This document shows positions 14,198 to 54,855 of a stretch of 64,000 bases of DNA, in pieces. Each line of letters starts with the position of its first letter. The first letter of the stretch is position 1. Location of the stretch: NCBI RefSeq assembly GCF_023023025.1, contig NZ_CP095481.1, positions 6,523,001-6,587,000 on the forward strand, given 5' to 3'. Made by a program: the position numbers and the translations under genes. This DNA comes from Amycolatopsis sp. WQ 127309. Lineage in GTDB: Bacteria > Actinomycetota > Actinomycetes > Mycobacteriales > Pseudonocardiaceae. A model generated the notes under the pieces. The model did not search any database, was not told the DNA's origin, and was given only the letters and a program-made list of their open reading frames with translations.

Positions 14198-14205
14198 GGC
14201 CACGA

Positions 14206-14246
14206 CCCACCGGCCACCGCCCCGCAACCGGGCGGCGGCCGGTGGG
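14206..14246 (+). terminator. Long hairpin terminator
   Basis: CCCACCGGCCACCGCCC (14206-14222) pairs with GGGCGGCGGCCGGTGGG (14230-14246) over 17 positions with one mismatch and a 7-nt loop. It ends the crystallin/aerolysin operon, just one base before the MITE-like element. Confidence 0.8.
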
Positions 14247-14247
14247 C

Positions 14248-21398: not shown

Positions 21399-21428
21399 AC
21401 GGTAGGCCTGTGCCACTCACCGGGTCAA
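21399..21428 (-). promoter_or_regulatory. Promoter of the GH64 gene
   Basis: On the minus strand TTGACC (21428-21423) and TACCGT (21404-21399) are 18 nt apart, a good sigma-70 type promoter. The -35 overlaps the stop codon of the preceding giant-protein gene. The predicted leader is about 155 nt long. Confidence 0.6.
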
Positions 21429-23281
21429 TGGTCCAGACATATTGAGAGCTTCTCGTGCAGCGCCGTTGCCCTGGTGACCGTTGACGGCGCGGACCCGGCC
21501 GGCGGCCGGGTCCGCGCCGGCCACTCCGGCGTCTCGACCAGGTCGTCGAAACGCAGGCCGCTGGAGCGCTCGCCGCGGCCGGCGTCGCGGCGCACGCTCA
21601 GCCACACCGCGACCCGCCCGGTCTTCGTCCGGGTCCGGTTGTAGGCCACCGTCAGCCGGGTGCCGGCGCGCGGGACCTCCTCCTCGTTGACGTGGTACGA
21701 GTTCCCGGCGTCCAGGCCCTCCCGCAGCAACGCCGTCCGCGGCCGGACCGGCGTGCCGTCGACCTCGCTCGGCATCGTGGCCCGCTGCAGCTGCACGGTC
21801 CGGTTGTCGCCCGGCACGTGCACCGGGACGAACGGGATCCAGTTCTCCGGCACCGAACCCATGAGCTCGTAGGCGATCGGGGCGTGCGGGTCGGTCACGG
21901 TCCCGGGCGGGTGCACCCGGCGGCGGAACGCGAGCGACTCGGCCGCGACCTCGTCGCCCGCCCGCCCCTCACCGCTCGCCATCCGCACGGTCTGCTCGAT
22001 GCCCCACACCAGGTTCGCGCTCTCGTCACGGACCAGCGTGACCTCCTCCAGCGCCGGGCCCGTGGCGACCTTCGGGGTGCCCGGCGGCAGGAGCAGCCCG
22101 GCGTCCCCGTCGAGGGTGTACATCGACCACTGCCGCTCGCTGCCCGCGGCTGCGGGCGTGATCCAGCGCCGCTCGCCGAAGACGTCGGTCACGGCCAGGC
22201 CCTGGACCTTCGCGAGCGTGCCGGCGGGCAGGTCGCACGGCAACTGGTACCAGTCGTTGCCGAACACCAGCGCGAACTCGAGGAAGATCAGCCGCGCCAG
22301 GTCGGTGCTGTCCGGGGTGACGGCGGCGAAGTTGGTCCGCCCGTCCTCGACCGCCCACCACCGCGGCAGCGGCATGCCGGAGAACCGGACGGGCGCCGGG
22401 AACACGGTGCGGTTCAGCGCGGCCGGCGCCGCGGCGGTGCCGCCGAGCGAACCGCCGCCGACGGAGAACGCGTGCCAGTCCAGTTCGCCGCCGGGGTACT
22501 CGGGCGCCGTCAGCACCCGCTCGCCGTCGGGTGCCGGGGCGGAGACGGCGAACCGGTGCTCCAGCCGCCGCGGGTCCCACGCCGACTCGGCGCCCGGCTG
22601 GTCGATGAGGTCGTCGAACCAGCCGGTCAGCCGGAGCCCGAGCGCGTCGAGGGCGTCGCGGTCCTTGCGCTGCAGGCCGGAGATGCCGTCGGAGGCGTGC
22701 CCGCCGCCCTTGACGTGCTGGTAGAGCAGGTAGCCGTCCATCCGCCGGCCCGCCACCGCCTGCGTGGCCGCCCACACCTCGGGGTGCGCGGTCGCCGGGG
22801 CGCTCGGCCCGGGCAGGGCGATCGGGTAGTCGTGGACGTACTCCCCGGCGACGTCGCGGCGGTCCCGCACCGCCGACCCGGCGACCAGCTTCAGCCAGCG
22901 ACGGCCGAGCGAAAGCCGCAGGTCGAACGAGATCGGCTCGGTGCCGAACGCGAACGGCAGCGGCCGCCGTTCCGCCACCGTCTCGAGTGGACGGTCGGTG
23001 GGCAGCGGTCCGGCCGGCCCGTCGCCCGGCCGGAACCGGGTCGGCGGGCTCGCGGTGACCGAGTACGTCGCGGTGACCGGCGAGCCGCCGTCCGTGCCGC
23101 GGAACTCGCCGAGCTGCCACTGCCGGGCCAGCAGCCACAGCGGATCGCGGATCTCGGCGCGCAGCGCGCGGTCGAAGCCGGTGGTGCGGGGCCGGCCCTC
23201 CAGCCGGTTCCACACACCGACGGCCGGGTGCTCGCGGCGCAGCAGCGCGCCGGCGAGGTCCGGGATGCGGGGCTCAGTCAT
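21425..23281 (-). CDS. Giant-protein cassette, gene F: unknown 618-residue protein
   Basis: Last gene of the six-gene cassette; it starts inside the end of gene E (8-nt overlap). It is a soluble, signal-less protein of a family I cannot name. The N-terminal segment RDPLWLLARQWQLGEFRGTD (about residues 45-64) is the most motif-like stretch. Others are the basic FDLRLSLGRRWLKLV, DWYQLPCDLPAGTLAKVQGL (about 345-364) and, near the end, GRVAVWLSVRRDAGRGERS. Predicted structure is mixed with many strands and few cysteines. There is no catalytic motif that I recognise. Conservation of the RQWQ-like motif suggests a structural role with the other cassette products; this is inference. Confidence 0.85.
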   Translation of the reverse strand: MTEPRIPDLAGALLRREHPAVGVWNRLEGRPRTTGFDRALRAEIRDPLWLLARQWQLGEFRGTDGGSPVTATYSVTASPPTRFRPGDGPAGPLPTDRPLETVAERRPLPFAFGTEPISFDLRLSLGRRWLKLVAGSAVRDRRDVAGEYVHDYPIALPGPSAPATAHPEVWAATQAVAGRRMDGYLLYQHVKGGGHASDGISGLQRKDRDALDALGLRLTGWFDDLIDQPGAESAWDPRRLEHRFAVSAPAPDGERVLTAPEYPGGELDWHAFSVGGGSLGGTAAAPAALNRTVFPAPVRFSGMPLPRWWAVEDGRTNFAAVTPDSTDLARLIFLEFALVFGNDWYQLPCDLPAGTLAKVQGLAVTDVFGERRWITPAAAGSERQWSMYTLDGDAGLLLPPGTPKVATGPALEEVTLVRDESANLVWGIEQTVRMASGEGRAGDEVAAESLAFRRRVHPPGTVTDPHAPIAYELMGSVPENWIPFVPVHVPGDNRTVQLQRATMPSEVDGTPVRPRTALLREGLDAGNSYHVNEEEVPRAGTRLTVAYNRTRTKTGRVAVWLSVRRDAGRGERSSGLRFDDLVETPEWPARTRPPAGSAPSTVTRATALHEKLSICLDH

Positions 23282-26200
23282 GGGTGGCCTTCCAGCGCAG
23301 GTTCGCGATCGCGAGATCGGTGCTGATGGTGATCGGGCGGCGGGTCGCCGAGAGCACGGTCGCCGGCAGCAGCTGCGCGTACCCGGTGTCGTCCAGGTGC
23401 GCCGGTTCGACCAGCCGCGTCCGCGCCAGTGCGAAGGTCTCGGTGACGGCGGCGACGAGGTCGGCGACGTCCCAGGTGCCGGTCCGCACCGGCGGGGCGA
23501 CGAGCAGCATGCTCTGCGGCGGCTCGGAGTCCGGGCTGTCGGCGTGCACCGCGAGCCCGGTCGTCTCCCGGTCGGCGGGGATCACTTCGGTCCACTCGTC
23601 GAACAGCAGCCCGCACTCGGTGTCGTCGCCGCTCGACGGCTGGTCGGCGTAGTGCGCGGTGAACAGCACACGGTCCTCGACGAGGTCCGCGCCGGGGGCG
23701 AACTCCATCCCGAGCCAGTGGTCGTCGTCGCGGAACGGCAGCTGGATCGGCACCAGCGCCGGTTCGTCGTCCGCGTCGCCGGACAGCAGGCCGTCCTCGC
23801 CCCGCAGCGCGTCGCTGAGCAGCACGACCCGCTCCCACAGCCGCGGCATGTCGCGCACCCGGGCGACGCCGTGCAGCCAGTCGTCGACCGGGAAGTCCCG
23901 CCGGAACGGTGCCTGGGTCAGGTGCCGGACGAGGGCTTCCCGGTCGTCGAATGCGTCGTCCAGGTCGTGGGCGAGGTCGTCGGAGATCTTGTACTCGGGC
24001 ACGACCAGGACGTCCGGGCCGAGCAGTGCCCGCAGCGCGTCGAGCGCGGCCTGCGCGTCGTCGGACGCCGTCGCCCCGGGGAGGCCGACGCGGGCCAGCG
24101 CCGCCGCGCTCGCGGCCAGCCGGTCCTCGATCTCGGCGAGCAGGGCCTGGGCCCGCGCCAGCAGCTCGGCGCCGAACCCGACGACCCGGTCCTGCACGGC
24201 GGTCAGGTCGAGGCCGGTGGCGTCGATGTCGGTCAGCGGCTGCTGGTGGGCGACGGCGTCCAGCAGGCCGCCGAGCGTTTTTTCGTTCGTCCCGGCCAAG
24301 TTCCGCAGTGTGGTCACCCGCCCGGCGAACTGGTTGCGCGCCCGGCGCAGGGCCGAGAGGAAGTCGTTCGGCCGCGGCGGGTCGTCGTCCGGGGTGGTGG
24401 TGAGCAGGTGCTCGATCCGGCGCAGCAGCCGCAGCCGCTCGGCGTCCGGAGTGGACCTCGGCAGCCTGTCGTACGCGGCGAGCAGCACGTCGGCGTCGGC
24501 GAGCGCTTTTCCCAGCCGGGCGGCGAGCACGGCCACCGCCGCGAGGACGTCCGCGTAGACACCGCGCCGCCACGCGGCCAGCTCGCTCCAGCCGCTGCGG
24601 GCGATGCCGAAGCCGCCCGCAACGCCGGCCAGCTCGGCGTACCGGGTGAGGAACACGTCGATCCGGTCCAGCACGTCGCCACGCCGGGGCGGAGCCGGCG
24701 CCAGCGGGTAGAGCCGCGCGAGGTCGTCCACGTAGTCGTCGACGTCGTCGGCCAGGTCGGAGAGCGCGTCGCGGACCTCCTCCGGCCGTCTCTTCGACAC
24801 GCTGACGCCGTCGTCGATCGACCGGTCCGGGGTCGCCGGTCCGGCCGCCGGCACCAGGTCGGTCGGCTTCAGGGGCCGGCCGGTGGTCAGCAGCGTCCGC
24901 AACGCCGTGAGCAACGGCGACAGCTCGAAGAAGCTGACCTTGCCCGGGATCCGCTCGGTGTACCGGATGCTCAGCTCGGCGTCCGGCCGCGGCTCGTCGT
25001 CGTCGAGCACCGCGCCGATGATCCGGTCGTCGAGCCCGGCCATCGCCGCGTCCCCGGCCGGCCGCACAGCCCACAGCAGGTCGATCGCCGTCAGGCCGAG
25101 ATCGTCTTGCGTGACAACGCTTTCCTGGGCGTCGCCCTCGTCGTCGGTCCACCTGACCACCACGGCGACGTCCCGCGGCGCCGGCAGCAGGGACGGCAGC
25201 CAGTCGTCGACGGCCGGCTCGGCCTTGGCCCGGGGCGAGCGCCGCCCGGCCGGGTTCAGCCCGGTCTTCAGGCGGAGCCCGAACCGGTGGGTGAGCGTGG
25301 TCCCGCTGCGCGGCGTCTCGATCACCGCCGGCTCCGGCGGCAGGCCGTCCTTGGCGTAGGAGTCGAGGGTCGCCGCGGCGCGGTCGACGTTGCCGGCGAG
25401 GGCCTGGTGCGCCGACTCGGCGACGGCGAGGTCGGCGACGGCGTCGTTGGCGTCCAGCAGCGCGGCCGCTTCCTCGGTGAGCGCCGTGGTCCGGTCCGGA
25501 TCGGCGTCCGGCAGCCCGGGCAGGTCGAAGGGGTAGGTCCGCGAGACGTCGTTGCGGGTCAGGTGCCGGACCAGCGCCAGGCCGTCGACGACGTTGCCGG
25601 CCTCGACCTGCCCGATCGCGACCTCATCGTCGTCCGCCGCCACCGCCGTCTGCTCGATCTTCCCGGCCCGCAACGGGAACCGGAGGCGCAACGCCGCGAT
25701 GAACGCGTCGACCTCGGCCTCGTCGTGCCGGTCGTGGAGGCCGCGTTCGAACCGGTAGCCCAGCAGCGCGCCGAGGGACTGGCCCTGCCGCAGACCGTCC
25801 AGGATGGACAGTGCGACGCGGACGCGGCCGGCGTCGAGGTTCACCGCGAACGCGCCGGGGTTGCCGGGCGTGCGGTTGGCGGCGTACCCGGCCCGCAGGA
25901 CAGCGGCCGTGCGGGCGTGGGCGGGTGAGGGCGTGTGCACGAACCCCTCGTTGCGCGGATCGTGCAGCAGCGGCTTGCCGCCGGCGAACACCGTCGCGAG
26001 CGGCCCGGTCAGCGTGACCGGTTCGAGCGGCACCGTGCTGGGCCGGACGTCTTCCAGCCAGCCGTACGCGCCGAGGTGCAGCCCGGTGCGCGCGGGCGCG
26101 GTGCCGTCGGGGCCGAACCGCAGCTCGGACAGCCGCTCGGTGGCCAGGCCGAGCCGCCACGCGTCCAGCCGGTAAGTGGCCAGGTCGAGGTGTTCGGCGA

Positions 26201-28487
26201 GCACCCGTTCCAGCCGGGCGGTCGGCAGGTCCGCGAGCACGTCGAGGGCCTTGACCTGCTCGGCGAGCGCGGCGGTCGGCCCCGGCCGGCCCAAGACGTC
26301 CGGGATGAAGTCGGCGAGCAGCCGATCCGGGTCGCCGGTGACGGCGGGCGCCGGGGAGTACAGCAGCCGGAAGCGGCTCTCGCTCGGCGCGGGGGCGACG
26401 CCGACGTGGACGAACGGCGCGTCCGCCGGGGACGGCACGGGGACCCCGGCCGCGGCCGCGAGCGCGCGGGCCGCGTCGTCCCAGCCGAGCAGCACCGCGT
26501 GCCGCAGCACCAGGTACAGCAGCGTCGGCGGGGGAGCGTCGCCGGCGAACCCGAGCTCCAGCCGGATGGCGTCGAGGTCGGTCCGCCCCGGGTCCGCACC
26601 GGCCAGATCGGCCAGCCAGCGGACGTAGTTCTTCCCGTCCGCGGTGTACGGCCGGATCGGGTCGGTCTCCGACAGCGGCCGGTCGTCGACCAGCGGGGCC
26701 AGGAAGGGCTGCTGGAAGTCGGCGAACAACCGGCGCAGCTGGTCCGGGTCCACGCCGGCCGCGGCGCCGAACCGGGCCAGCAACGCGCGCACCGGCTGCG
26801 GCTCGTTCAGCGCGTCCAGGGCCGGCCGCACGGTCGCGCCCCGCCCGCCCAGGTTCTCCCGGTTGAAGAAGTCCTCGACGCTGTGGGCGTACCGCTGGTG
26901 GTACTCGGCCGACGTCGGGTGCAGCGCGAGGACGTCCAGCAGCAGCTGGTGCGGGTCGGCGGCGGCCGGGTCGAGCCGCGGCACCCGGGCGGTGGCCGCG
27001 GCCCAGTCCTGGCCCACGGCGTCCAGGACCTTCTGCAACGCGCGTCGGTGCGTCGCCGCCGGGGGATAGGCGAGCCGGGAGAACGCCGTCGTCGGCAGGA
27101 TCCCGTACGGCTGCCGCCCGATTTTCACCGCCGGCAGCGGGCCGCGGCCGGAGACGTACTTCAGGAAGAAGTCGCGGGTCGCCGCGACGGCGGCCGGGCC
27201 GAGCAGCGGGTTCAGCGCGGTCTGCAGGAACGAGCCCCAGGTCGCCGGCCACAGGGCGGTGTTGGCGGCCCGCGCGTCACGCTGGTCGGTGCCGTCGGCG
27301 TTCGGCATCCCGGTCAGCACGGCGGGATCCAGGCCGAGCAGCTCGGCGAACTGCCGCCCGTCCGTGCGGCCGGTCCAGTCCGCCGTCGCCGCGAACGCCG
27401 TCGGAGCGGCGTTCCGCAGCACGGCGTCGGCCTCCTGGTCCGCGTCGACGCCCGCCGGTGCCGCCTCGGAGTTGTTGGTCGGCGTTCCTTGCGGCAGCAG
27501 GGAAAAGCCGTCCGAGCCACGCAGCTGCCGGGTCACGAGATCGGCCAGGTCGAGCGCGGTCTGCGCCGGCGTGGACTGCTCGCGCAGGCCGAGCACGACC
27601 AGCCGGTCGAGCCCGCCGCGCAGCTGGTCGGTCAGCGGGATCCGCACGCCCATCCCGACCGCGACCGCCCGGTCGAAGTCGGTGAGCCAGCGCAGGTCGT
27701 CCGGGACGTGCAGCACCCCGGTCTTCTCGTCGACGCTGATCTTGTCGGCGGCGGCCGGGTCCGGGCTCACCGCCAGCGTCGCCGGGACCGCGGCGCCGGT
27801 CACCGACACCACCTGCGCGCCACCGGCGAACCCGAGCACCCGGAAGCGGTCCGGCAGCAGCCGCGCCCGCGCGGCGCCGGTCCACGAATCCGTCGCGACG
27901 GTGCCCGCCGCGGGCGCCGGCAGCACGAGGAACGCGACCACGACGTCGTCGACCGCGCTCACCGCGGCACCGTCCACTCCGGACGGACGCCGGGCGCGGA
28001 TCGCGGCGGCGCGGTCGGCCTTCACGGCGGTGGTGAGGGCGACGTCCGCCTGCCGGATCGCCTCCCGGTCGCCGTGGGCGCGCCAGACGGCGCTCCAGTA
28101 GGTGACCGACGGCTGCCGGTCGGCCGGGACGGGCGCGGTGGTGCCGCGGACGACGAGCACCACGGCGCCGTCCCGGACGCCGGTGGGTTCGTCCGCCGGG
28201 TTCGTGGGTTTCCGGGTCCGCAGCAGCCAGGCCGCGCGCCCGGGCGACACCCGCCCGGCCAGCTCCCGCCAGGCGGCCTGGAGCCGGGCGGCCCGGCCGC
28301 CCGCGGCCCAGCGGGCGGTCCAGTAGGCGTCGAGCGCGGCGATCTCGGCGTCGGCCGGCTTCGCCTCGAACTTCTCCACGGCCCAGTCGTCGGGGAACAC
28401 CCGGACCAGCAGTTCGGTGGCGGTGAAGCGGGTTTCGACGCGGACCGGCGCCAGCAGCACCGGGAAGTCGTCGCTCAACGCGGTCAT
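23274..28487 (-). CDS. Giant-protein cassette, gene E: unknown 1737-residue protein
   Basis: The largest protein in the window, without signal peptide or membrane segment. It opens with LLAPVRVETRFTATELLVRV and FPDDWAVEKFEAK, a start I associate with uncharacterised very large bacterial proteins. Motif-like stretches are ANTALWPATWGSFLQTALNP (about residues 408-427), the basic VKIGRQPYGILPTTAFSRL (about 455-473) and RYAHSVEDFFNRENLG. The last 500 residues include long helices that may be coiled (AAVAVLAARLGKALADADVL) and a beta-rich C-terminal domain (LVPIQLPFRDDDHWLGMEF). The ATG overlaps the stop of gene D (ATGA). No nucleotide-binding or hydrolase motif was found. Its size suggests a scaffold or machine part. 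Confidence 0.85.
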   Translation of the reverse strand: MTALSDDFPVLLAPVRVETRFTATELLVRVFPDDWAVEKFEAKPADAEIAALDAYWTARWAAGGRAARLQAAWRELAGRVSPGRAAWLLRTRKPTNPADEPTGVRDGAVVLVVRGTTAPVPADRQPSVTYWSAVWRAHGDREAIRQADVALTTAVKADRAAAIRARRPSGVDGAAVSAVDDVVVAFLVLPAPAAGTVATDSWTGAARARLLPDRFRVLGFAGGAQVVSVTGAAVPATLAVSPDPAAADKISVDEKTGVLHVPDDLRWLTDFDRAVAVGMGVRIPLTDQLRGGLDRLVVLGLREQSTPAQTALDLADLVTRQLRGSDGFSLLPQGTPTNNSEAAPAGVDADQEADAVLRNAAPTAFAATADWTGRTDGRQFAELLGLDPAVLTGMPNADGTDQRDARAANTALWPATWGSFLQTALNPLLGPAAVAATRDFFLKYVSGRGPLPAVKIGRQPYGILPTTAFSRLAYPPAATHRRALQKVLDAVGQDWAAATARVPRLDPAAADPHQLLLDVLALHPTSAEYHQRYAHSVEDFFNRENLGGRGATVRPALDALNEPQPVRALLARFGAAAGVDPDQLRRLFADFQQPFLAPLVDDRPLSETDPIRPYTADGKNYVRWLADLAGADPGRTDLDAIRLELGFAGDAPPPTLLYLVLRHAVLLGWDDAARALAAAAGVPVPSPADAPFVHVGVAPAPSESRFRLLYSPAPAVTGDPDRLLADFIPDVLGRPGPTAALAEQVKALDVLADLPTARLERVLAEHLDLATYRLDAWRLGLATERLSELRFGPDGTAPARTGLHLGAYGWLEDVRPSTVPLEPVTLTGPLATVFAGGKPLLHDPRNEGFVHTPSPAHARTAAVLRAGYAANRTPGNPGAFAVNLDAGRVRVALSILDGLRQGQSLGALLGYRFERGLHDRHDEAEVDAFIAALRLRFPLRAGKIEQTAVAADDDEVAIGQVEAGNVVDGLALVRHLTRNDVSRTYPFDLPGLPDADPDRTTALTEEAAALLDANDAVADLAVAESAHQALAGNVDRAAATLDSYAKDGLPPEPAVIETPRSGTTLTHRFGLRLKTGLNPAGRRSPRAKAEPAVDDWLPSLLPAPRDVAVVVRWTDDEGDAQESVVTQDDLGLTAIDLLWAVRPAGDAAMAGLDDRIIGAVLDDDEPRPDAELSIRYTERIPGKVSFFELSPLLTALRTLLTTGRPLKPTDLVPAAGPATPDRSIDDGVSVSKRRPEEVRDALSDLADDVDDYVDDLARLYPLAPAPPRRGDVLDRIDVFLTRYAELAGVAGGFGIARSGWSELAAWRRGVYADVLAAVAVLAARLGKALADADVLLAAYDRLPRSTPDAERLRLLRRIEHLLTTTPDDDPPRPNDFLSALRRARNQFAGRVTTLRNLAGTNEKTLGGLLDAVAHQQPLTDIDATGLDLTAVQDRVVGFGAELLARAQALLAEIEDRLAASAAALARVGLPGATASDDAQAALDALRALLGPDVLVVPEYKISDDLAHDLDDAFDDREALVRHLTQAPFRRDFPVDDWLHGVARVRDMPRLWERVVLLSDALRGEDGLLSGDADDEPALVPIQLPFRDDDHWLGMEFAPGADLVEDRVLFTAHYADQPSSGDDTECGLLFDEWTEVIPADRETTGLAVHADSPDSEPPQSMLLVAPPVRTGTWDVADLVAAVTETFALARTRLVEPAHLDDTGYAQLLPATVLSATRRPITISTDLAIANLRWKATHD

Positions 28488-31400: not shown

Positions 31401-31645
31401 GTGGACACCCCGGGCCGCGGCTCGGTCCGCGAGATCGCCCGCGGGTCCACCCCGACGACGTCGCCGGGCCCGTAGAGCTGGACGTCCTTCGACACGGGCA
31501 GGCTGATCGTGCCGCCGCCGAGCGCGTCGCCGACGACCTGCAGCCGCACCGGGACGGAGGCGCGTTCGGCGGTCTGCGGGTTCTCGGTGATCCGGGTGCT
31601 GATGCCGGTGCGCAGCCACGGCAGGAAGGAGTACGCGCTGGTCAC
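28484..31645 (-). CDS. Giant-protein cassette, gene D: unknown 1053-residue protein
   Basis: A GTG-initiated gene whose start overlaps the stop of the kelch gene C (GTGA) and whose stop overlaps the start of gene E (ATGA), so all three are translationally coupled. No signal peptide. Recognisable stretches are SAYSFLPWLRTGISTRI at the N-terminus, HIEFSEEDFPWRYSPAAPD and RLAPWLALVVLATGTEF (about residues 88-125). In the C-terminal third come NREFIESYLVGLNHEMAREL and LLWREYPTDQRGTPFRQFWD (about 770-810). The last is very distinctive and should be an excellent search seed. No known enzyme motif was seen. Similar proteins exist in distant bacteria as far as I recall, always uncharacterised. Confidence 0.85.
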   Translation of the reverse strand: MTSAYSFLPWLRTGISTRITENPQTAERASVPVRLQVVGDALGGGTISLPVSKDVQLYGPGDVVGVDPRAISRTEPRPGVSTVEPNFLAHIEFSEEDFPWRYSPAAPDAGTRRLAPWLALVVLATGTEFTEVPGTPHPLPAIVVADPAGTLPRPEQLGAWAHVHVNGALAAPVATDDTAGALAALGEVLRTNADSACARLICPRRLRPGTAYEAFLVPAFETGRLAGLGLDPAASPGALYSSWGPHYPNRAAEGQLPYYHRWAFGTGTAGDFEFLVRLLKPQAADPRVGRRGMDAHNSPGLGLDGITTPAELGGVLPLGGALKVPARRDAPVDPAENWDNFLDTPSAPPYPHPFEEALAAVVNLADDYQRHEPAVAHAGTPLADVGPDPVITPPLYGRWHALTTRLLTGEDGVRVPPAISHNWVHRLNLDPRFRVAANLGTRVVKARDEELMAAAWAQVGDVLVANGRIRAAQLAREVGHVLQTKHVDPPTGGSPAALAAAPALSGRSLTLTAPAHSRVTTTAAGGTTPGLVADGADQVAVGFRVATSQVATAPVSPAMRRITRPGSRLMRTLPFDGARADALLSRMDDPVAPVTAAPVKVTPGALVTPADLAATLHPDRPPGADPVDVLAHSPDFVLRGLDETTVPHPGTTDSEEATRFKAALRELYQGLDAGVAVGHAPRPPRLDLLGTTTSVLAGLRSDETVPRTLFEGSVSLPERLRPFAAAFVEAMAYPVFDLPVYRTLLDLSVDAFVPNLNLLPPNSITLLANNREFIESYLVGLNHEMARELLWREYPTDQRGTPFRQFWDPVTALPRPRETAAARRERGYDIPPIHEWPLDARLGGNDNRVDVRPQGDDLVLVIRGELLKKYPTAAIYAHKAEWPPGADGRPDPTRPRRLVELPATGLPSPEQVQLPLYEAKVEPDIYLLGFDLDTDQALGRPGVDAGWFFVLKERPGDPRFGVDDGPPTHLEVWNDLTWDDVDPARRGFLDLDPAVTVPLAGFDGTDDAEKLDQRAEDVQLPVWSAGLSSADLAYILFQVPVLVAVHAQEMVPR

Positions 31646-32808
31646 GGGGTGCTCCCGTCGAAGATTTCCGTGGTGGCGGCCAGTTCGAGGGCCGCCGGGT
31701 CCGCGGCCGCGAGGCCGGAGCGGACCACACCGCCGGTGACGAGCACCCGGTCGTCGGCGAGCGCGGTGGCGGCGAACGACCACCGCCCGGCGGTGAGCCC
31801 GGCCGCCGTCAGCCACCGATCCGCGGTGACGTCGTAGACGAACGCGCTGCGGTACCCGGCCTCGTCGCGGTCGCTCGCGGCCCCGCCGGCCACCAGGACC
31901 CGGTCGTCGCCGATCGCGATCGCGCGGTGGAACGCCCGCCCCGACGGCATTTCCGCCCGGGTCGTCCACACGCCGGTGTCCAGGTCGTAGCGCTCGACGG
32001 TCCGCTGGCTGAACGGGTCGAACGGCGCGACGCCGGGGGAGCCGGGCGCGGTGCCGCCGGTGACGAGCACGGTCTTGCCGGACAGGCGGGTGGCCCGGTG
32101 CTGGTGGCGGGCGCGCAGCAGGGTGCCGGTCGGCGTCCACTCGTCCGCGCCCGCGTCGTACAGCTCGCAGAACGCGAGGGCCGGGGCGTCGGCCGCGCCG
32201 GTCGGGACGACGCCGCCGGCGACCAGGACGACCCCGCCGGCCAGCACGACCGCCGGGTGGCCGGTCCGCGCGTCGGTCATGGGGGCGACGGTGTGCCACT
32301 CGCCGCCGTGGCCGGGGGTGTAGCGCTCCACCGACCGCACGGCGGTGGTGCCGCCGCCGGGTCGGGCCACGCTGCCGCCGGCGACGAGGACCGAGCCGTC
32401 CGGCAGCAGCACTGCGCTGTGGCCCCAGCGGGCCGTTTCCGGCTGGCCGGCGGGCGTCCAGTGGCGGGTGTCCGGGTGGTAGAGCTCGGCGGCCGGCACG
32501 GCGGCCGAGCCGTTGAGCCCGCCGACGGCGAGGACGGTGCCGTCGGCCAGCCGGGTGAGGGAGTGCAGCTGCCGCGGTGTGTGCAGGGCGTCCACGGGTT
32601 GCCAGGCCCCGCCGGTGCCCGTCGTCGCGGGGGTGAAGACGGCCGCGTCGGCGATGGCCGTCGCGGTGGCGTCCGTGCCGCCGGCGACCAGGACGGTGCC
32701 GTCGTCGAGCAGGACGGGCCCGTCGTGCTGGCCGTACCAGGCGGCCGGGGCGGGCAGGCCGGGGGCGGCGGTCCACGTCCCGACGGCCGTCTCGATGGTG
32801 GTGGTCAT
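31642..32808 (-). CDS. Giant-protein cassette, gene C: kelch-type beta-propeller
   Basis: A 388-residue protein made almost entirely of kelch repeats, about seven. Each has the pattern hydrophobic-LxDGxVLVAGG, a variable loop, then ELYxPxxxxWTxxG with conserved aromatic and glycine pairs (DGTVLVAGGTDAT; DGTVLAVGGLNG; DGSVLVAGGSVARP; GKTVLVTGGTAPG). Kelch propellers bind proteins or, in galactose oxidase, form the catalytic domain; the oxidase copper ligands are not evident. No signal peptide. It is paralogous to the C-terminal domain of gene B, lies 23 nt after it, and overlaps gene D by 4 nt. Confidence 0.9.
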   Translation of the reverse strand: MTTTIETAVGTWTAAPGLPAPAAWYGQHDGPVLLDDGTVLVAGGTDATATAIADAAVFTPATTGTGGAWQPVDALHTPRQLHSLTRLADGTVLAVGGLNGSAAVPAAELYHPDTRHWTPAGQPETARWGHSAVLLPDGSVLVAGGSVARPGGGTTAVRSVERYTPGHGGEWHTVAPMTDARTGHPAVVLAGGVVLVAGGVVPTGAADAPALAFCELYDAGADEWTPTGTLLRARHQHRATRLSGKTVLVTGGTAPGSPGVAPFDPFSQRTVERYDLDTGVWTTRAEMPSGRAFHRAIAIGDDRVLVAGGAASDRDEAGYRSAFVYDVTADRWLTAAGLTAGRWSFAATALADDRVLVTGGVVRSGLAAADPAALELAATTEIFDGSTP

Positions 32809-32831
32809 GGTGTCGTTCCTCCTGAGCCGGG

Positions 32832-35800
32832 TCACGGGATGAGCACTTCGGCGGGATCGGTGGTGCCCGCCGCGACGAGCACGCGGTCGTCCGCCAGTTC
32901 GGTCACGGCGTGGCCGGCGCGCCCGTGGCCGAGGCCGGCGAAGGTGACCCAGCTGTCGTCGCCGGGCCGGTAGGCCAAGGTGGCGCGGAAGCCGGCGGTG
33001 AGTTCCGGCGCGCCGGTGCCGCCGGTCACCAGGACGACGCCCGAGCGCAGCACCAGGCTCCGGTGTCCGCTGCGGCCCCCGCCCGGCATGGCCGCCGCGG
33101 CGGTCCACCGCCCGGTCGCCGGGTGGTACCGCTCGGCGGTCGCCAGACTGTGCGGGTCGAACGTCCCGTCGTCGCCGATCACCGCGTCGCCACCGGTGAC
33201 GAGCACCGTGCCGTCCGGCAGCAGCGTCGCCTGGTGGCCGTGGCGCGCCTCGGCGAGGCTGCCGGTGGGGGACCAGCCGAGGACCGGGTCGTACAGCTCG
33301 CACCGGGTCAGCGCGTCCGCCCGCCCGTTGCCGGCCGGCGTCGCACCGCCGACGACCAGCACCCGGCCGCCGGGCAGCGGCACCGCCTGGTGCCCGGTCC
33401 GCGCCTCGGTCATCGGCGGGGTGGCGGTCCAGGTCCGGGTGGCCGGGTCGTACAGCTCGGCCGACGCGAGCGCGCCGTCCTCCTGCCCGGCCCGCACTCC
33501 CGAGCCGCCGGCGACCAGCACCCGGCCGTCGGGCAGCCGGGTCGCCGAGTGGCCGTACCGGGCGGTGCCCAGGTCCGCCGCCGGCGTCCAGGCTCCCGCG
33601 GCCGGGTCGAAGACCGCCGCCGAGGCGAGCACGGCGTCGGCGCCGCGGCCGCCCGCGACGAGCACCCGGCCGTCGGCGAGGCCGGTCGTGGTGTGCCGCC
33701 GCCGGGCGGCGGCCAGCGGCGGGCCGGGCGCCCACGAGTCGGCGGTGGGGTCGAACAACGCGGTCGCGGCGACCGGCGCACCGGCCGGGTCGGTGCCGCC
33801 GGCGAGCAGCGTCCGGCCGGTGGCCAGCGCCACCAAGTCCACTTCGGACACCGGCACCGGCAGCACACCGGCGTCGGACCAGGTGCCCGGGACGCCGGGC
33901 GTGACCGCCGCCTCGGACGCCGGGATCACGTGCAGCCGCCCGGTGAGACCGGGGTCGTCGGCGGTGAAGTCCGCGAGCGCGTCCGCCGCCGTGCCCCGGC
34001 TGCGGAACGTCGCCGGGATGTCCCGCGACGGCCGCCCGGGCACCCGCGGCGGGAACGCCTGCCGGTTGCTCTTGACGTAGGCGACGACGAACCGCTGCTC
34101 GGTGACGCGGACGGTGTCGGCGGCCGCGAACGGCTGCTTCTGCTGCGCCTGCCGGACCGACAGCGCCGCGCGGCTGGTGCTGCTGCCGTTCAGCAGCTGG
34201 TCGAACACCGGCCCGCTGACCGTGTGGAAGCGCTTCACCGGCGCGGTGGCGGCGAACGCGGCCGCCGGCGCCGCGCTGTCGCCGCTGTCGCCGCTGTCGA
34301 CGATGTGCAGCTCGTAGCGGGCGCTGCGGCGCACGACCCGGGCGGTGGCCATGGCCTGGTCGGCGACCAGTTCGAGGCCGGCGTCCTGCGTCTCGTAGGA
34401 CGGGCGGGACAGCTTCGCGGCGTCGGAGAAGTCCTGGAACTGCCCCATCGCGAACCGGTCGGCGGTGTCGTCGCCCCGGCTGAGCCCGCTGTTCTCGACC
34501 GGCGCGACGCGGAAGCGCCGTCCGTCGCCGGCCCGCTGACCGCCGATCCGGTCCACCCGCACGTTCAGCGGCAGCACCCGCTGCCGGACGAACAACCGGC
34601 CGAGCGGGTGCAGCACCAGCTCGCCGGTGTCCGGCAGGTCACGCAGGTTGACCAGTGTCCGGTTGCCGCCGGTGGGCAGCCGGGTCTCCCAGCCCTCGTT
34701 CTTGCCGAACTCGGTGGTCAGCAAGGGAAGCACCGCGACCGGCGGCAGCGTGGTGTCCCGGCTTTCACCCCACGTGATGTCGAAATCGGCCGAGATCGAG
34801 AAGAACAGGAAGCCGATCGAGCCCCGTCCGTGGGCCCGCCACGGCGCCGGGCCTTCGAGCTGGAAGTCCAGGTCGATGCCGAACGCGCCGACGCCGAACG
34901 CCTTGAGCGTCACGTGGGCGGAGATGTGGACTGCGAACCGGAACGGCGAGAACTGGAACAGGCCGTCGAACCCGAGGTGGCCTTCGACGCCGAAACCGCT
35001 GAACCCCAGCCGGATCTCGGCCGCGGCCCCGAACTGCACGGTGTTGCTCGTGATCGCGAAGTAGCCGGCGATCCGGATCAGCTGGTTGCGCCGGTTGAGC
35101 AGGTCCACCGACAGCCGGTCGGGGATCGGGAACGGCAGCGGCGGCGGCCGGTAGGACGGGTGGAACCCGCCGACCGTCAGCACCAGGTCCGGGTTGTCGC
35201 CCCAGGCCACCAGCACGCCCATGCCGCCGTCGATCGTCATGGCGAGGATCCGCGAGTCGAACAGCTTCGCGAAGAACCACAGCCGGGACTTGTCCAGCTC
35301 CAGCGCGCCCACGAACTGCGCCTGCACGACCAGCAGCGGATCGTCCACAGTGGGCAGTGCCGCGCGCAGCACGCCGAGCACGGCGATGTTCCCGGGGACC
35401 TCGATGATCACGCCGAGCGAGATGCTCACCAGGGTCGGGGTGCCCCAGCCGATCTTCGCCATCGGCCCGATCAGGAACGTGCCCTGCTCCGGCGGGAAGA
35501 ACCGCGCCAGGTCCGACAGGATGCGCGGCGCGTTCGCGACGACGTCCTTGGGGAACGCCACCGACTCGATCGCGCCGGTCCGCACCCCTTCGACCAGCGC
35601 CTGCAGGTTCATCCCGCGGTTCAACCCGACCAGACCGCCGACGGCCAGCAGCCGGAACCCGTACCCCAGCTGGATCCCGCTGCCGAACTCGGCGGTGAGG
35701 ACCAGCAGCAGGGAGAAACCCGGTGCCCCGTCCGGCTGGCGCGTCGTGATCAACCCGATCGCCTTCAGCGCGAGGAAGTCCGCGAACTCCAGTTCCAGTG

Positions 35801-37373
35801 CGCCCGAGTACTCCCCGCGACCGGGGTCGAACGCGAGGAACCCGCCGCCCGAGATCCCGCCGGCGTCGATCGTCAGCCCGACGCCGCCGGGCGGCTTGAA
35901 CTCGACGGAGAAGTCGGCGAGCCCCAGGCTGCCGCCGTCGTCCGGCTGCGAGAGCCGCAGCACCACACCGGTCCGTTCGACCGCCGCGAAGACCGGGCCG
36001 AGCCGGGCGCTGACCGAGCTCGACGCCTCGAGCGTGACGCCCCCGGCCGCCAGCAGCAGCGCGAGGTGCAGGCTGCTGATCGTCACCGGGCCGGCGGTGA
36101 GGTCGACCGGGACGTCGACCTCCGCCCCGGCGGCGCCGGTGAACCGCAGCCCGCCGGCCGACGACCACGTCAGCGCGAGGTCGACGTCCAGCTCGAGGGA
36201 CCGGGACGGCAGGATCGTGCCGAGGAAACCGTCGGCGTCGGCCAGGTTCAGGACGACCTTGCCGCCCTCGATGGCCGCCTCGAGCACGAACTCACCCTCG
36301 GCGTGGCCCGCGGCGGGGTTCCATTCGAGGTCCGCGCCGGCGGTCGCGCGCAGCTTGCGCGCCTCGATCCGCGAACCGCCGGCGGTGCCCAGCACGACGA
36401 TCGGCGGCGCGCCGTCGGCGTGCGGGGCCTGGAAGCCGAACCGCACCCCGCCGCGCACCTCGCCCGACGGCGGGACGACCCGGAGATCGGCCGGCGGCAG
36501 CAGGGCGACGGCGGTGTCCTCCGCCAGCGCCGCGTCCGACGTCACGACGAGCGCCACCGTGTCGTTGATCGGCAGCACCAGGTTCAGGTTCTCGGTGGCG
36601 GCGAGCCGCAGCAGCGCCCGGACGCCGGGCACCGGGTCGTCGGTGACGCCGATGTCGACCCCCGCGACCCGCAGGAACGGCGGCGGCCCGGACTGCACGA
36701 ACGCGAAGTCCGTGACCGCGACGAGGAAGATCGACAGCCGCCGCAGCAGCAGGTCCCAGTCGAACGCGGGCGTGCCCCAGCCGTAGAGCTGCGCGAGGAC
36801 GCCGACCGGGTCGTGGAGCAGCGCGTTCACCCGGTCGATGTGCAGCAGGCGGCGCACGTGGGTGGGTGTGGCGGCGGTGGCGGCCTGCGGCGCCGACTCG
36901 ATGATCCCGAGCAGCTCCAGCGTGTAGCCGGCCATCGGTTTCTGCGCTTCGAGGTAGGTCGCGAGGGCGAAGCCGAACAGCCGTTGCGCCAGCTCGGCGG
37001 CGAACGCCTCGACCTCGGCCTGGTGCGTCCCGGCCGTCCGCGCCGCCGTCCTGATCGCGCCGGACACCACGTCCACGGCCGCGGCGACGGACTCCACGAT
37101 CCGCGCCACGGCGGCCACCGCCGCGGTGACCCGGCCGGCGTCCCGCGCGTCGATCGCCGCGGCCAGCTCCGGCACCACGCCGGACAGCGCGCTGAGCGAC
37201 GTCGCCGCGCCGCCGATCGCCGTCCCGACGGCCTGGGTGCCGAGGACGACCTCGGACGACGGCAGCCCGATTTCGGCGAACAGCAACGGGATTTCCCCGC
37301 CACGCAGCCGTTGTTCGAGCGGCGCGAACGCGCGGCCGATCTCGAGCAGCAGGGATTCGAGGGTCAGTGCCAT
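32832..37373 (-). CDS. Giant-protein cassette, gene B: DUF6603 protein fused to a kelch propeller
   Basis: A 1513-residue protein. Residues 1-210 are mostly helical. Residues about 230-900 are long alternating strands of the DUF6603 type (GYGFRLLAVGGLVGLNRGMN; LVSISLGVIIEVPGNIAVLG; FDGLFQFSPFRFAVHISAHV). Alternation of polar and hydrophobic residues suggests an elongated amphipathic sheet, which could line a groove or barrel. Residues about 930-1150 are a linker domain, and 1160-1513 a kelch propeller closely similar to gene C. DUF6603 has no known function. There is no signal peptide or clear transmembrane helix. It starts 28 nt after the peptidase gene and is followed after 23 nt by gene C. 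Confidence 0.85.
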   Translation of the reverse strand: MALTLESLLLEIGRAFAPLEQRLRGGEIPLLFAEIGLPSSEVVLGTQAVGTAIGGAATSLSALSGVVPELAAAIDARDAGRVTAAVAAVARIVESVAAAVDVVSGAIRTAARTAGTHQAEVEAFAAELAQRLFGFALATYLEAQKPMAGYTLELLGIIESAPQAATAATPTHVRRLLHIDRVNALLHDPVGVLAQLYGWGTPAFDWDLLLRRLSIFLVAVTDFAFVQSGPPPFLRVAGVDIGVTDDPVPGVRALLRLAATENLNLVLPINDTVALVVTSDAALAEDTAVALLPPADLRVVPPSGEVRGGVRFGFQAPHADGAPPIVVLGTAGGSRIEARKLRATAGADLEWNPAAGHAEGEFVLEAAIEGGKVVLNLADADGFLGTILPSRSLELDVDLALTWSSAGGLRFTGAAGAEVDVPVDLTAGPVTISSLHLALLLAAGGVTLEASSSVSARLGPVFAAVERTGVVLRLSQPDDGGSLGLADFSVEFKPPGGVGLTIDAGGISGGGFLAFDPGRGEYSGALELEFADFLALKAIGLITTRQPDGAPGFSLLLVLTAEFGSGIQLGYGFRLLAVGGLVGLNRGMNLQALVEGVRTGAIESVAFPKDVVANAPRILSDLARFFPPEQGTFLIGPMAKIGWGTPTLVSISLGVIIEVPGNIAVLGVLRAALPTVDDPLLVVQAQFVGALELDKSRLWFFAKLFDSRILAMTIDGGMGVLVAWGDNPDLVLTVGGFHPSYRPPPLPFPIPDRLSVDLLNRRNQLIRIAGYFAITSNTVQFGAAAEIRLGFSGFGVEGHLGFDGLFQFSPFRFAVHISAHVTLKAFGVGAFGIDLDFQLEGPAPWRAHGRGSIGFLFFSISADFDITWGESRDTTLPPVAVLPLLTTEFGKNEGWETRLPTGGNRTLVNLRDLPDTGELVLHPLGRLFVRQRVLPLNVRVDRIGGQRAGDGRRFRVAPVENSGLSRGDDTADRFAMGQFQDFSDAAKLSRPSYETQDAGLELVADQAMATARVVRRSARYELHIVDSGDSGDSAAPAAAFAATAPVKRFHTVSGPVFDQLLNGSSTSRAALSVRQAQQKQPFAAADTVRVTEQRFVVAYVKSNRQAFPPRVPGRPSRDIPATFRSRGTAADALADFTADDPGLTGRLHVIPASEAAVTPGVPGTWSDAGVLPVPVSEVDLVALATGRTLLAGGTDPAGAPVAATALFDPTADSWAPGPPLAAARRRHTTTGLADGRVLVAGGRGADAVLASAAVFDPAAGAWTPAADLGTARYGHSATRLPDGRVLVAGGSGVRAGQEDGALASAELYDPATRTWTATPPMTEARTGHQAVPLPGGRVLVVGGATPAGNGRADALTRCELYDPVLGWSPTGSLAEARHGHQATLLPDGTVLVTGGDAVIGDDGTFDPHSLATAERYHPATGRWTAAAAMPGGGRSGHRSLVLRSGVVLVTGGTGAPELTAGFRATLAYRPGDDSWVTFAGLGHGRAGHAVTELADDRVLVAAGTTDPAEVLIP

Positions 37374-37401
37374 CGGGAGCCTCCGGTCGATCCGGCGGGG
37401 T

Positions 37402-39366
37402 TCACGTCAGTGCTCCGGTCACGACCAGCGCATAGCCCTGCTTGCCGAAGACCACCGTGCCCCGGAGGGTGATCTTCCAGCTGCCGGAAACCGGCTTGTC
37501 GACGATCACCATCTGGACGTTGTTGAGCAGGTCCTGGGCACCGGTGGCCCCGGGCCTGGAGAAACCGGTCGCGGGGTCGAAGTCGTTCCCGAGGTACCGG
37601 GTGCCCCCGGAGTCCTCCACCTCCAGCCGGAGCACGTTCCGCGACGCGTGGGTGGAGGCCTCGGCCGCCGGCGGGTCCGTCCACACGAGAGTGATCTTGA
37701 GCTGCTGGGGGTTGTTGACGAACACGTGCTGCGACGTCGCCACGGCCAGCGTCAGCCCGGCGTCGTGCTTCACGTCGTTCACGAGCAGCCGGCGGGGGCT
37801 GCGCGGATCCTTGAAGAAGAGGGTGCGGTCGAGCTGGATCAGGCCCCAGCCTTCGGTGTCGGACGGGTAGCCGGCGATGCCGGTCATGTCGACGGCCGAG
37901 TTGAGCAGCACGGCCCGGATCAGGGCCCCGGTGGGGGTGAAGCCGCGGTTCTTCTCCTTCGCGCCGTGGGGGTACCACCCCTCGGTGAAGTACTGGCGCA
38001 CGAGCACGGCCGCGGCCGCGGCGCTCGGCGTCGCCCAGCTCGTGGCGGCCAGCGTCGGGGACTTCACGTAGGGACCGACGTCGCAGAACGGGCCGGTCGA
38101 CCCCCTCGGCCGCTGCAGGGCGGACTGGATGCCGTTGCCCACGGCCATGAGATCGGGTTTGCGCCGCCCGTCCGCGGTCGGCCCCGGCTTCCCGCTGCCG
38201 AAGCTCATCTGGTCGGGAGGCCCCTGCGCGGCGGCCACGCAGAGCACGTTCTTCGCGATGCCGGGCGCGCCGTTGCCGGCGGCCCGGTCGTTCGTGTTCG
38301 CCGCGGCGGCGATCACCACGTGTTCCTCGTTCTTGAAGCTGAACGTGTCCGCGTTCACCGCGTCGACGTTGTACTTCGGGACGCCGCCGGCCCAGCTGTT
38401 GCTGTGGACGGTCGCCCCCAGCTTCTTCGCCATGTCGAGGACCTGCAGGAAGCTGAGCCCCATCGGCGGGAACAGGTCGTCGACGCTGCGGGAGGTGAGC
38501 TTGGCTTCGTACGCGCCACCGCGGTGCGGGTGGAGGGTGCTGGACTTGCCGTCGGCGCTGCGCTGGTCGCCGGCCGCGATGCCGGCGACGAACATGAAGT
38601 GGTCGGTGACGTCCGGGAAGTTCTGGTCGAACATGCCGAGGACCTTGCGGTGGTCCTCGCCCGCCTTCGCGTGCTCGGGATCGGTGAAGAAGCAGTGCTC
38701 GAGGTCGAGGTGCCCCTTGTCGATGAGCCCCAGGACCTGACCCTCGCCGTGCAGTCCGTGGTCCCAGATCGGTTCGCTGCCCGCGCCGGTCCGGCCCGAC
38801 TGGAACACCTCGGCCGCGGGGACGTCGGTCTCCACGCGATCCGGCACCGGCTCGACCAGGACGATCTCGCCGATCGCCGCGACCTGGGGCAGCTTCGTCC
38901 GGTCGTCCAGGGTGAACCCGGCGTACTGGTGGCCGCCGACGGGCCGGTCGTCGGTGAGCAGGACGTCACGGGCGCCGAGCGCGCTCAAGGCCGTCCCGAC
39001 GGCCGGCGCGTCCGCGTCGGCGAACAGGGTCGCGATCAGGGTGAGCGTGCCGGTGGCGGGAATCCACGACGCGAGCTTCGACGCCGGATCGAACGGGATG
39101 ACCGAGCGCACCAGGAAGTCGGCGCGCAGCCTCGTGACCGTCGCGTCGTCGAGCCGTTCGAGGAACGCCAGGTTCGGGACGAACCGGTCGAGGACCAGGC
39201 CGTAGGCGGCGCGGACCCGGACGGCGTCGGGCTCGCTCAACGCGGCCGCGAACTGGACGACCACGGCCTTCCGGGCCGCGGCGAGGCCGGCGGGCGCGGG
39301 TGGCACGTCGAGGGGGTCGAACGGCTCGTCGCCGATCATCAGGCGGAAGTCCTGGTGCTGGATCAT
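37402..39366 (-). CDS. Giant-protein cassette, gene A: S8 (subtilisin) family peptidase
   Basis: A 654-residue serine peptidase, first gene of the cassette. The triad is intact: Asp216 in GQVLGLIDKG, His256 in DVTDHFMFVAGIAAGD, Ser443 in AATSWATPSAAAA (normally GTSMATP). The oxyanion Asn is probably in VIAAAANTND. Residues 1-190 are a non-catalytic N-terminal region without a signal peptide, and residues about 520-654 form a beta-sandwich like that of proprotein convertases (QLKITLVWTDPPAAEASTHA; NVQMVIVDKPVSGSWKITL). Most bacterial subtilases are exported; lack of a Sec or Tat signal here means it acts inside the cell or leaves by another route. It probably processes or activates cassette partners. 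GGGGAGG precedes the ATG. Confidence 0.9.
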   Translation of the reverse strand: MIQHQDFRLMIGDEPFDPLDVPPAPAGLAAARKAVVVQFAAALSEPDAVRVRAAYGLVLDRFVPNLAFLERLDDATVTRLRADFLVRSVIPFDPASKLASWIPATGTLTLIATLFADADAPAVGTALSALGARDVLLTDDRPVGGHQYAGFTLDDRTKLPQVAAIGEIVLVEPVPDRVETDVPAAEVFQSGRTGAGSEPIWDHGLHGEGQVLGLIDKGHLDLEHCFFTDPEHAKAGEDHRKVLGMFDQNFPDVTDHFMFVAGIAAGDQRSADGKSSTLHPHRGGAYEAKLTSRSVDDLFPPMGLSFLQVLDMAKKLGATVHSNSWAGGVPKYNVDAVNADTFSFKNEEHVVIAAAANTNDRAAGNGAPGIAKNVLCVAAAQGPPDQMSFGSGKPGPTADGRRKPDLMAVGNGIQSALQRPRGSTGPFCDVGPYVKSPTLAATSWATPSAAAAAVLVRQYFTEGWYPHGAKEKNRGFTPTGALIRAVLLNSAVDMTGIAGYPSDTEGWGLIQLDRTLFFKDPRSPRRLLVNDVKHDAGLTLAVATSQHVFVNNPQQLKITLVWTDPPAAEASTHASRNVLRLEVEDSGGTRYLGNDFDPATGFSRPGATGAQDLLNNVQMVIVDKPVSGSWKITLRGTVVFGKQGYALVVTGALT

Positions 39367-46097: not shown

Positions 46098-46108
46098 AGG
46101 GGAATCCC

Positions 46109-54785: not shown

Positions 54786-54786
54786 G

Positions 54787-54855
54787 TTCAGAAGCCGGTC
54801 GGCCGAGGCGCTGGCGGAGCTGGCTTCGCTGATCGGCGCACAGCTTCAGGAGTGA
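54787..54855 (+). other. Coding-like fragment, possible gene remnant
   Basis: The frame ending at the TGA of 54853-54855 reads FRSRSAEALAELASLIGAQL and then QE. It has codon-like GC bias and an amphipathic helix pattern but no start codon or upstream coding body. It could be the tail of a gene lost during rearrangement, or chance. Confidence 0.2.

Follow-up and report, generated by a model that had tools for sequence, protein, structure and literature searches.

A conserved DUF6603-D-E-F gene unit with an exchangeable enzyme gene in front, possibly encoding a signal-less enzyme-carrying assembly in bacteria and archaea

Do six closely packed genes for large proteins without visible export signals encode one system, and what might that system do? 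In this study, we addressed this question for a cassette in Amycolatopsis sp. WQ 127309, using a window of 64,000 nt (positions 6,523,001 to 6,587,000 of contig NZ_CP095481.1). A preliminary description of this DNA had placed six ORFs, A to F, on the minus strand; their positions and lengths hold, and the same six were picked by a codon-usage gene caller. Gene A (37402-39366, 654 aa) encodes an S8 subtilase, which we regard as the payload of this copy. Gene B (32832-37373, 1513 aa) encodes a DUF6603 protein with a C-terminal kelch propeller and gene C (31642-32808, 388 aa) a free kelch propeller, which we take as an accessory. Genes D (28484-31645, 1053 aa, GTG start), E (23274-28487, 1737 aa, or 1955 aa from an alternative upstream GTG) and F (21425-23281, 618 aa) have no family match and are, with B, the proposed chassis subunits. 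The spacing is also as described, with gaps of 28 and 23 nt followed by overlaps of 4, 4 and 8 nt.

Family matches confirmed the S8 peptidase in A, DUF6603 in B and the kelch repeats in B and C. Protein A scored 77.6 bits against PF00082 (Pfam cut-off 21.8), and motif search and family alignment located its catalytic Asp216, His256 and Ser443 and its oxyanion Asn357. Its residues 202-649 align with chains 1wmd, which we take to be KP-43, and 5fax (SubHal), the nearest solved relatives. These known enzymes are secreted; A differs in that hydropathy shows no signal peptide and that its gene is followed, after 28 nt, by the gene for a DUF6603 protein. The DUF6603 domain of B (residues 423-985; 34419..36107, minus strand) matched PF20248 over nearly its full length (404.5 bits, cut-off 27, model positions 1-501 of 502), and the kelch repeats occupy about residues 1172-1504 (32862..33860, minus strand). 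PF20248 is known as a name only, and a literature search that left most subscription papers and preprints outside its reach returned no paper with the words DUF6603 or PF20248. D, E and F match no known family: none scored above a Pfam or NCBIfam cut-off, and none matched PHROGs at E≤0.1.

The preliminary description had treated the six genes as parts of a single system. Among the genomes seen, D, E, F and DUF6603 are mostly found together and seldom singly, and the S8 gene and kelch propellers vary; the single-system view thus stands for DUF6603, D, E and F and fails for the peptidase and propellers as fixed parts. What stays constant is DUF6603-D-E-F and not the full sextet. Of 80 genome loci reached through F homologues, and therefore selected on F, all 80 had a match to E and 76 a match to D, and DUF6603 was present in 73 of the 75 distinct genomes reached in this way. 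A sample of 396 actinobacterial genomes that was not so selected contained DUF6603 in 12, F in 10, D in 9 and E in 8; every genome with D or E also had DUF6603, and the joint presence of D and F was far above chance (p=3e-14). The median overlap is 4 nt for D-E (71 pairs), for E-F (72 pairs) and for D with the gene before it (61 pairs). Gene order is conserved across actinobacteria, a cyanobacterium, Bacteroidota, Acidobacteria-type MAGs, Gemmatimonadota, proteobacteria and haloarchaea.

F relatives occur on 14 plasmid records, and nine of the 10 examined carry DUF6603-D-E-F; the tenth, a Streptomyces plasmid with F beside IS elements (L086), is the one case in which neither D nor E lies within 20 kb of F. 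Two of the 396 genomes (G344 and G383) have F only, and they were kept in the counts; their F contigs are short (3170 and 4865 bases), so that the partners could lie off the contig. Three others (G279, G321 and G336) have DUF6603 with no match to D, E or F and another large gene directly after it. Taken alone, this gene gives a match to D in one of the three, G336 (33 bits). When six proteins of this kind were aligned, two of them included by position and start alone, the alignment matched the first domain of D (hhalign 98.0%).

Of the 62 linked loci, 60 have a gene immediately in front of DUF6603, with a median gap of 1 nt and an overlap in 22 of the 55 cases measured; the other two loci have no adjacent front gene, and on a Nocardia plasmid an S8 gene follows F instead. 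When the 60 front genes were classified, by Pfam for representatives and by BLAST clusters for the remainder, they comprised peptidases (S8a 4, S8b 13, trypsin-like 10, M64 10, M14 1), PhoD (16), phospholipase D (PLD, 2), one tyrosinase, one galactose-oxidase-like protein and two of no known family; the trypsin type is trypsin/Nal1-like. Their active-site motifs are largely retained: GDSG is present in all 24 trypsin-type proteins and HExxH in all 11 of the M64 type, but in S8a copies Glu replaces the catalytic Asp in 6 of 12. The F tree, with 55 labelled rows, requires at least 19 changes of enzyme class, and some supported sister pairs differ in class. This suggests that the front gene is an exchangeable enzyme, represented in the window by the subtilase.

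Part of these enzymes have a domain in common. A C-terminal domain of about 120 residues is found in 6 of 13 S8b subtilases and in 21 trypsin-like payload proteins; comparing the two groups by hhalign gave 99.8% for this domain versus 0.8% for the catalytic parts. Profile comparison of eight class alignments matched S8a with S8b, the two trypsin sets with each other and the two PhoD sets likewise; beyond these related pairs, it unexpectedly joined S8b to both trypsin sets. As nothing else matched, we rejected the idea of one docking domain for every payload class. In 26 genomes, all 23 domain matches lay within 3.7 kb of DUF6603 and none elsewhere, with a profile trained on copies from these loci and, in most genomes, 150 of 200-400 candidates scored. 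A survey of 296 genomes, which scored 15 candidates per genome, found none, and without a positive genome among them this result is weak. Two single-sequence searches returned 27 proteins, 26 labelled S8 and one unlabelled, and 48 proteins, of which 11 carried a trypsin-type label, one Nal1 only and the others none. The domain has no clear relative among solved structures (best E 0.066). Its presence on unrelated protease folds and, in the 26 genomes, next to DUF6603 only makes it a candidate docking tag. No such domain was detected in S8a (the kind in the window), M64, PhoD or PLD payloads, and 7 of 13 S8b proteins lack it as well; docking through it would thus not be universal.

Other modules also vary between copies, namely kelch, WD40, LamG, lamin-tail, FG-GAP and peptidoglycan-binding modules. 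Kelch matches, which may be C or the tail of B, occur in 37 of the 80 F loci, each with an F at least 58% identical. Such propeller and lectin-like modules would aim or attach the chassis. Lamin tail domains are treated in general terms in PMC5118699.

For the core proteins we also considered predicted single-chain models of D (pLDDT 83.2) and F (pLDDT 78.5). Neither matched a solved fold, nor did F match a viral model, at E≤0.001. In F, 12 of 27 invariant residues fall in low-pLDDT segments of this single-chain model, an over-representation (p=0.0018) that would be expected of an interface; the signal is weaker when nearly invariant residues are added (19 of 70, p=0.05). The motif RQWQLGEF (residues 53-60; 23102..23125, minus strand), invariant in a 43-row alignment, lies in a low-confidence part of the model and is a possible subunit interface.

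Where would such proteins act? None of A to F has a visible export signal, in agreement with the preliminary description: in a crude scan their N-terminal hydropathy was 0.95-1.95, below threshold. In the same scan, six other window genes with signal-like N-termini reached 2.23-2.75, and two further window glycosidases, as called, scored 1.76 and 0.53. Among relatives, it flagged as signal-like 7 of 95 DUF6603/kelch matches, 1 of 75 E proteins and 6 of 60 payloads. The companion claim of no membrane helix is less sure: A and F stay below a crude 19-residue threshold, and B, C, D and E exceed it, C most of all. With four of six over the threshold, and helix-like stretches flagged in 24 of 73 D and 25 of 75 E proteins, this test is uninformative. 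The payload enzymes come mostly from families known in secreted proteins, and a loaded particle would therefore most likely act outside its producer.

The genomic pattern is strong; assembly, docking, release and extracellular action are our inference, as adjacent and coupled genes need not encode proteins that bind one another. B, D, E and F would be obligate partners in a single large assembly that forms without Sec or Tat signals, and the front-gene enzyme would be mounted on this chassis or packed in it, in part of the loci by means of the C-terminal domain shared by unrelated protease folds. The loaded particle would be released by lysis or another route. We give even chances to a multi-subunit chassis of DUF6603, D, E and F that carries an interchangeable enzyme and probably works extracellularly. 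The fuller proposal is more tentative and, in our judgement, somewhat less likely to be right than wrong: a four-protein chassis of undescribed families in bacteria and archaea, assembled in the cytoplasm without export signals, carrying at least eight exchangeable enzyme families, with a docking domain in part of them, and delivered outside to other cells or the surroundings.

An unlikely alternative, though the likeliest of the rivals, is an intracellular conflict or defence system, in which the chassis would sense a phage or other invader and activate an exchangeable toxic enzyme (protease, lipase, phosphatase or nuclease-like) inside the cell. A conserved core with exchangeable effectors is typical of defence systems, the proteins have no signal peptides by the crude test, A matches a generic 'subtilase' PADLOC model (44 bits), and the distribution is sporadic (12 of 396 genomes) and extends to the plasmid records above. 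However, B, C, D, E and F matched no PADLOC model at E≤0.01, and Pfam and NCBIfam searches of the core showed no NTPase, nucleotide-signalling or nucleic-acid-binding domain. Moreover, tyrosinase, galactose-oxidase-like, PhoD and M64 enzymes are not usual suicide effectors, and the LamG, lamin-tail and peptidoglycan-binding modules point to targets outside the cell. Polymorphic toxin and defence systems likewise combine a conserved scaffold, a repeatedly swapped enzyme and a domain common to unrelated enzymes; here, however, the effector has a gene of its own upstream, D, E and F match no described family, and an unsystematic look noticed no recurrent immunity-like gene.

It is improbable that the cassette belongs, as cargo or as an add-on, to a contractile injection system whose genes lie elsewhere in the genome. 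The preliminary description had found no sheath, tube or AAA+ gene, which is true of the cassette (no sheath or tube domain in its six genes by Pfam and NCBIfam) but not of the chromosome, which has, about 3.3 Mb from the cassette, one match to the phage sheath family and three to the gp19-type tube family. These matches favour the cargo reading, as do a divergent DUF6603 locus with two Hcp-family genes upstream and an F relative labelled 'Phage tail protein' by a source. Against it, such genes are missing from the cassette, Hcp-like genes were found by tblastn in 1 of 222 fetched loci and nowhere in the window's genome, and, as described above, the models of D and F matched no solved fold and that of F no viral model. 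In addition, chains of 1000-1700 residues would be bulky cargo for a tube lumen. The Hcp link, confined to the one divergent locus, was rejected. The gene content of the cassette agrees with the earlier view that it is not a standard contractile injection system. Like extracellular contractile injection systems (eCIS), which occur sporadically in environmental bacteria, it is a large set of genes without export signals that comes with an enzyme cargo; it differs in having no sheath, tube, baseplate or AAA+ gene and so rare an Hcp association. A phage origin was likewise rejected, as none of 35 pattern hits from an IMG/VR scan with the F alignment was confirmed as a relative. A GenBank 'Bacteriophage sp.' record from human faeces holds part of DUF6603 with D-E-F; judged by the first residues of their products, the remaining genes appear bacterial, and we take the record for a misassigned contig.

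Equally improbable is a dedicated role of the front enzyme in maturation, with the giant proteins as its substrates. Peptidases do fill the slot most often, but phosphatases, phospholipases and oxidases also occupy it beside homologous chassis genes, and close relatives differ in protease type. Of the two roles first offered for the peptidase, effector or maturation enzyme, effector or payload is therefore likelier. That the genes are unrelated and merely neighbours in some genomes, as the variable kelch and other modules and the lone F of one plasmid might suggest, is already contradicted by their joint presence in the 396 unselected genomes and by an order kept across several bacterial phyla and haloarchaea, and we give it almost no weight.

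If the proposed chassis with its exchangeable payload is real, thousands of large 'hypothetical proteins' (2607 F relatives alone at E≤0.001, among 7989 scored) would become one describable system. The front-gene enzyme would tell what each copy can act on and so provide an experimental handle, and the shared C-terminal domain would be a testable loading tag. If the particle is extracellular, it would give bacteria and archaea a means to deploy enzymes independently of signal peptides, with an evident use as a carrier.

The six genes A-F occupy positions 21425-39366 of the window on the minus strand, in a genome assembled as one contig of 11.13 Mb. The lengths, gaps and overlaps given in the preliminary description were all confirmed, and a codon-usage gene caller returned the same six genes. 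A is a subtilase of family S8, B combines DUF6603 with a kelch tail, and C consists of a kelch propeller. For D, E and F, no family scored above the cut-off in Pfam or NCBIfam, and nothing matched at E ≤ 0.1 in PHROGs. The gene that follows F after 187 nt on the same strand (19633-21237) encodes a GH64 beta-1,3-glucanase, which carries a ricin-type lectin domain and has a signal-like N-terminus, and a lactate-utilisation-type pair (CCG domain; LUD and 4Fe-4S domains) at 39698-41898 is divergent from A. Because of these flanks, the cassette is taken to end at A and F. The window also holds a BTAD transcriptional activator with a NACHT domain (10084-12762) and a large glycosidase cluster (42918-61219) comprising GH78-type and GH106 alpha-L-rhamnosidases, GH127, and GH3 with PA14 (the domain scan left out 49447-52356); in contrast to the cassette, the first four genes of this cluster have N-terminal hydrophobic stretches.

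The proposal that the cassette represents a single undescribed system was borne out by the co-occurrence of DUF6603, D, E and F. Among 396 unselected actinobacterial genomes, drawn four times alike with one draw per protein, DUF6603 was found in 12, F in 10, D in 9 and E in 8, the absences of D, E and F being soft since two or three candidates were scored per genome. DUF6603 was present in every D and every E genome and in 8 of the 10 F genomes; in the two F-only genomes, the contigs that carry F are 3.2 and 4.9 kb long. Joint counts expected by chance, computed for DUF6603, D and F, were 0.2-0.3 (hypergeometric p = 4e-16 for DUF6603-D, 2e-12 for DUF6603-F and 3e-14 for D-F).

F homologues numbered 2607 at E ≤ 0.001 among 7989 scored, and 80 of the 144 loci confirmed by an F scan of genome contigs were taken into comparison. 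Their hosts are actinobacteria, a cyanobacterium, Bacteroidota, Acidobacteria-type MAGs, Planctomycetota, proteobacteria and a Nitrososphaerales archaeon. Using the window proteins, tblastn detected E in 80/80, D in 76/80 and B in 64/80, many of these loci being cut off by the end of a contig or 10 kb ahead of F, and DUF6603 was present in 73 of the 75 distinct genomes reached (all except G050 and G063). The gene order is DUF6603-D-E-F, all on one strand, with a median overlap of 4 nt at D-E (71 pairs), at E-F (72 pairs, one value being a fused reading frame counted against itself) and between D and the gene before it (61 pairs, counted with a profile that cannot tell DUF6603 from kelch). F also matched 14 plasmid records; of ten opened, nine carry DUF6603-D-E-F, including plasmids of haloarchaea, Gemmatirosa, Paraburkholderia and Rhizobium (in the last, D and E are each split in two), and one carries F alone. 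This last locus, on a Streptomyces anthocyanicus plasmid (L086, 20001-21806), is perhaps a remnant: neither D nor E nor DUF6603 lies within 20 kb of F, and there are IS5-family transposases 4-6 kb upstream. A human faecal record labelled 'Bacteriophage sp.' (L082, MT835531.1), with a partial DUF6603 and D-E-F beside bacterial-looking genes, is probably a misassigned bacterial contig. E and F form a single 2168-aa reading frame in a Pyrinomonadaceae MAG (L061, 4656-11162), and in Leptolyngbya (L150) D-E-F is followed by a PhoD-like gene and then a DUF6603 gene, in what seem to be two cassettes head to tail.

The subtilase and kelch proteins, also proposed as fixed parts, did not prove to be so. 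We fetched 86 stretches upstream of DUF6603 and counted 62, assigned by eye to the front of an F locus on a contig of identical length; the remaining 24, from second copies or from different contigs, were left out of the count. DUF6603 is immediately preceded by a gene in 60 of the 62 loci (none in L071 and L075), with a median gap of 1 nt and an overlap in 22 of 55 measured. By Pfam on representatives and BLAST for the remainder, these payload genes comprise PhoD-like (16; weak Pfam scores of 23-50 bits, L146 at 23 bits being under the cut-off), subtilases of two kinds, S8b (13) and S8a (4, the window's A being one more), trypsin/Nal1-like (10, 8 as tandem pairs; only L127, as Nal1_C, and L090, as Trypsin_2, passed the cut-off among those scanned, the others being sub-threshold or without match), M64 (10; L136 at 24 bits is under and L185 at 39 bits over the cut-off), PLD (2), M14, tyrosinase and galactose-oxidase-like (1 each), and no known family (2). 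Of 48 relatives, however, 11 bear a trypsin-type label. DUF6603 loci outside the count add a VioB-type ferritin-like protein, LamG proteins and endonuclease/phosphatase-family proteins. Motifs were found as follows: GDSG in 24/24 trypsin-type, HExxH in 11/11 M64-type, HKD in 3/3 PLD and the PhoD-like pattern in 18/22 proteins, and the strict subtilase Ser pattern in 12/13 S8b and 6/12 S8a. On alignment, His and Ser are kept in all 12 S8a proteins and Glu replaces the catalytic Asp in six; in the window's copy Asp, His, Asn and Ser are all present. S8a genes stand in tandem, two or three, ahead of DUF6603 in L152, L159, L160 and L143.

A quick maximum-likelihood tree was built from F with 57 rows, 55 of them labelled (no usable F call in L015, L021, L038, L079, L066 and L041). 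It requires at least 19 changes of payload class, the minimum for 10 classes being 9; of 50 label shuffles, the ten that were listed needed 32-38 changes. Within the clade of the window's F (34 rows) there are 13 changes, and supported sister pairs carry unlike payloads (trypsin in L031 and M64 in L034, support 98; S8b in L033 and trypsin in L035, support 99). The payload is thus both inherited and repeatedly exchanged.

Profile comparison of eight payload classes gave a single unexpected match, between S8b and both trypsin-like sets. The common part, a candidate docking tag, covers about 120 residues at the C-terminus and includes a conserved WHR-type motif; these domains alone match at 99.8%, with up to 44% identity, and the catalytic parts at 0.8%, which is no match. 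The tag occurs in 6/13 S8b proteins and in 21/22 of the trypsin-type proteins that were clustered, and is missing from two additional short pieces and from the window's S8a. In 26 whole genomes, 16 chosen as tag carriers and 10 with other payload classes, all 23 matches fell in the carriers, at most 3.7 kb from DUF6603, and none in the other 10. Since one domain is found on unrelated enzymes, at one locus and nowhere else in the 26 genomes, the tag has the look expected of a loading or docking domain, for which it is a candidate.

In three DUF6603-only genomes of the 396, a large gene lies directly behind DUF6603, D-like on its own in one (33 bits). Six proteins following DUF6603, two of them picked by position and start, matched the first domain of D when aligned jointly (hhalign 98.0%). 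In L215-L219 and L222, DUF6603 is followed by a D-like protein, and some of these loci add a large protein opening with an 'LLVPV.LD.L'-type motif, in which similarity to E was not detectable. Such loci may have a second type of layout, in which E is replaced by a different partner protein. The divergent locus L218 has two Hcp-family genes (13912-14391 and 16701-17189; 55 and 122 bits) upstream of the gene for a DUF6603 protein of 3233 aa; no such genes were detected in the 221 further loci that were fetched. Some 3.3 Mb away from the cassette, the window's chromosome carries one match to a sheath family and three to tube families (G000:C1:9923967-9931910; L223, L224 and L225), which probably mark a contractile injection locus.

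Among solved structures there was no convincing match to the AlphaFold model of either F (pLDDT 78.5) or D (83.2). Invariant residues of F are over-represented in low-confidence segments of its model (12/27 versus 118/618 residues overall; p = 0.0018; with nearly invariant residues added, 19/70, p = 0.05), and these conserved segments may, cautiously, be read as an interface needing partners. A crude N-terminal hydropathy test was positive for 0/73 D, 1/75 E, 0/74 F, 7/95 DUF6603/kelch matches (including fragments at contig edges) and 6/60 payloads, these six looking like strands rather than signals. Add-on modules include lamin tail, LamG, FG-GAP, peptidoglycan-binding and WD40 domains, as well as a BGTF surface domain annotated in the E protein of haloarchaea. 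Except for WD40, which is uninformative on place of action, these are kinds known from exported or surface proteins, and because of this resemblance our leading guess is that the system acts extracellularly.

The literature library searched returned no paper naming DUF6603 or PF20248. Taken together, the co-occurrence of the core genes and the swapping of payloads are well established, and a physical complex between the payload and a chassis of DUF6603, D, E and F is likely.
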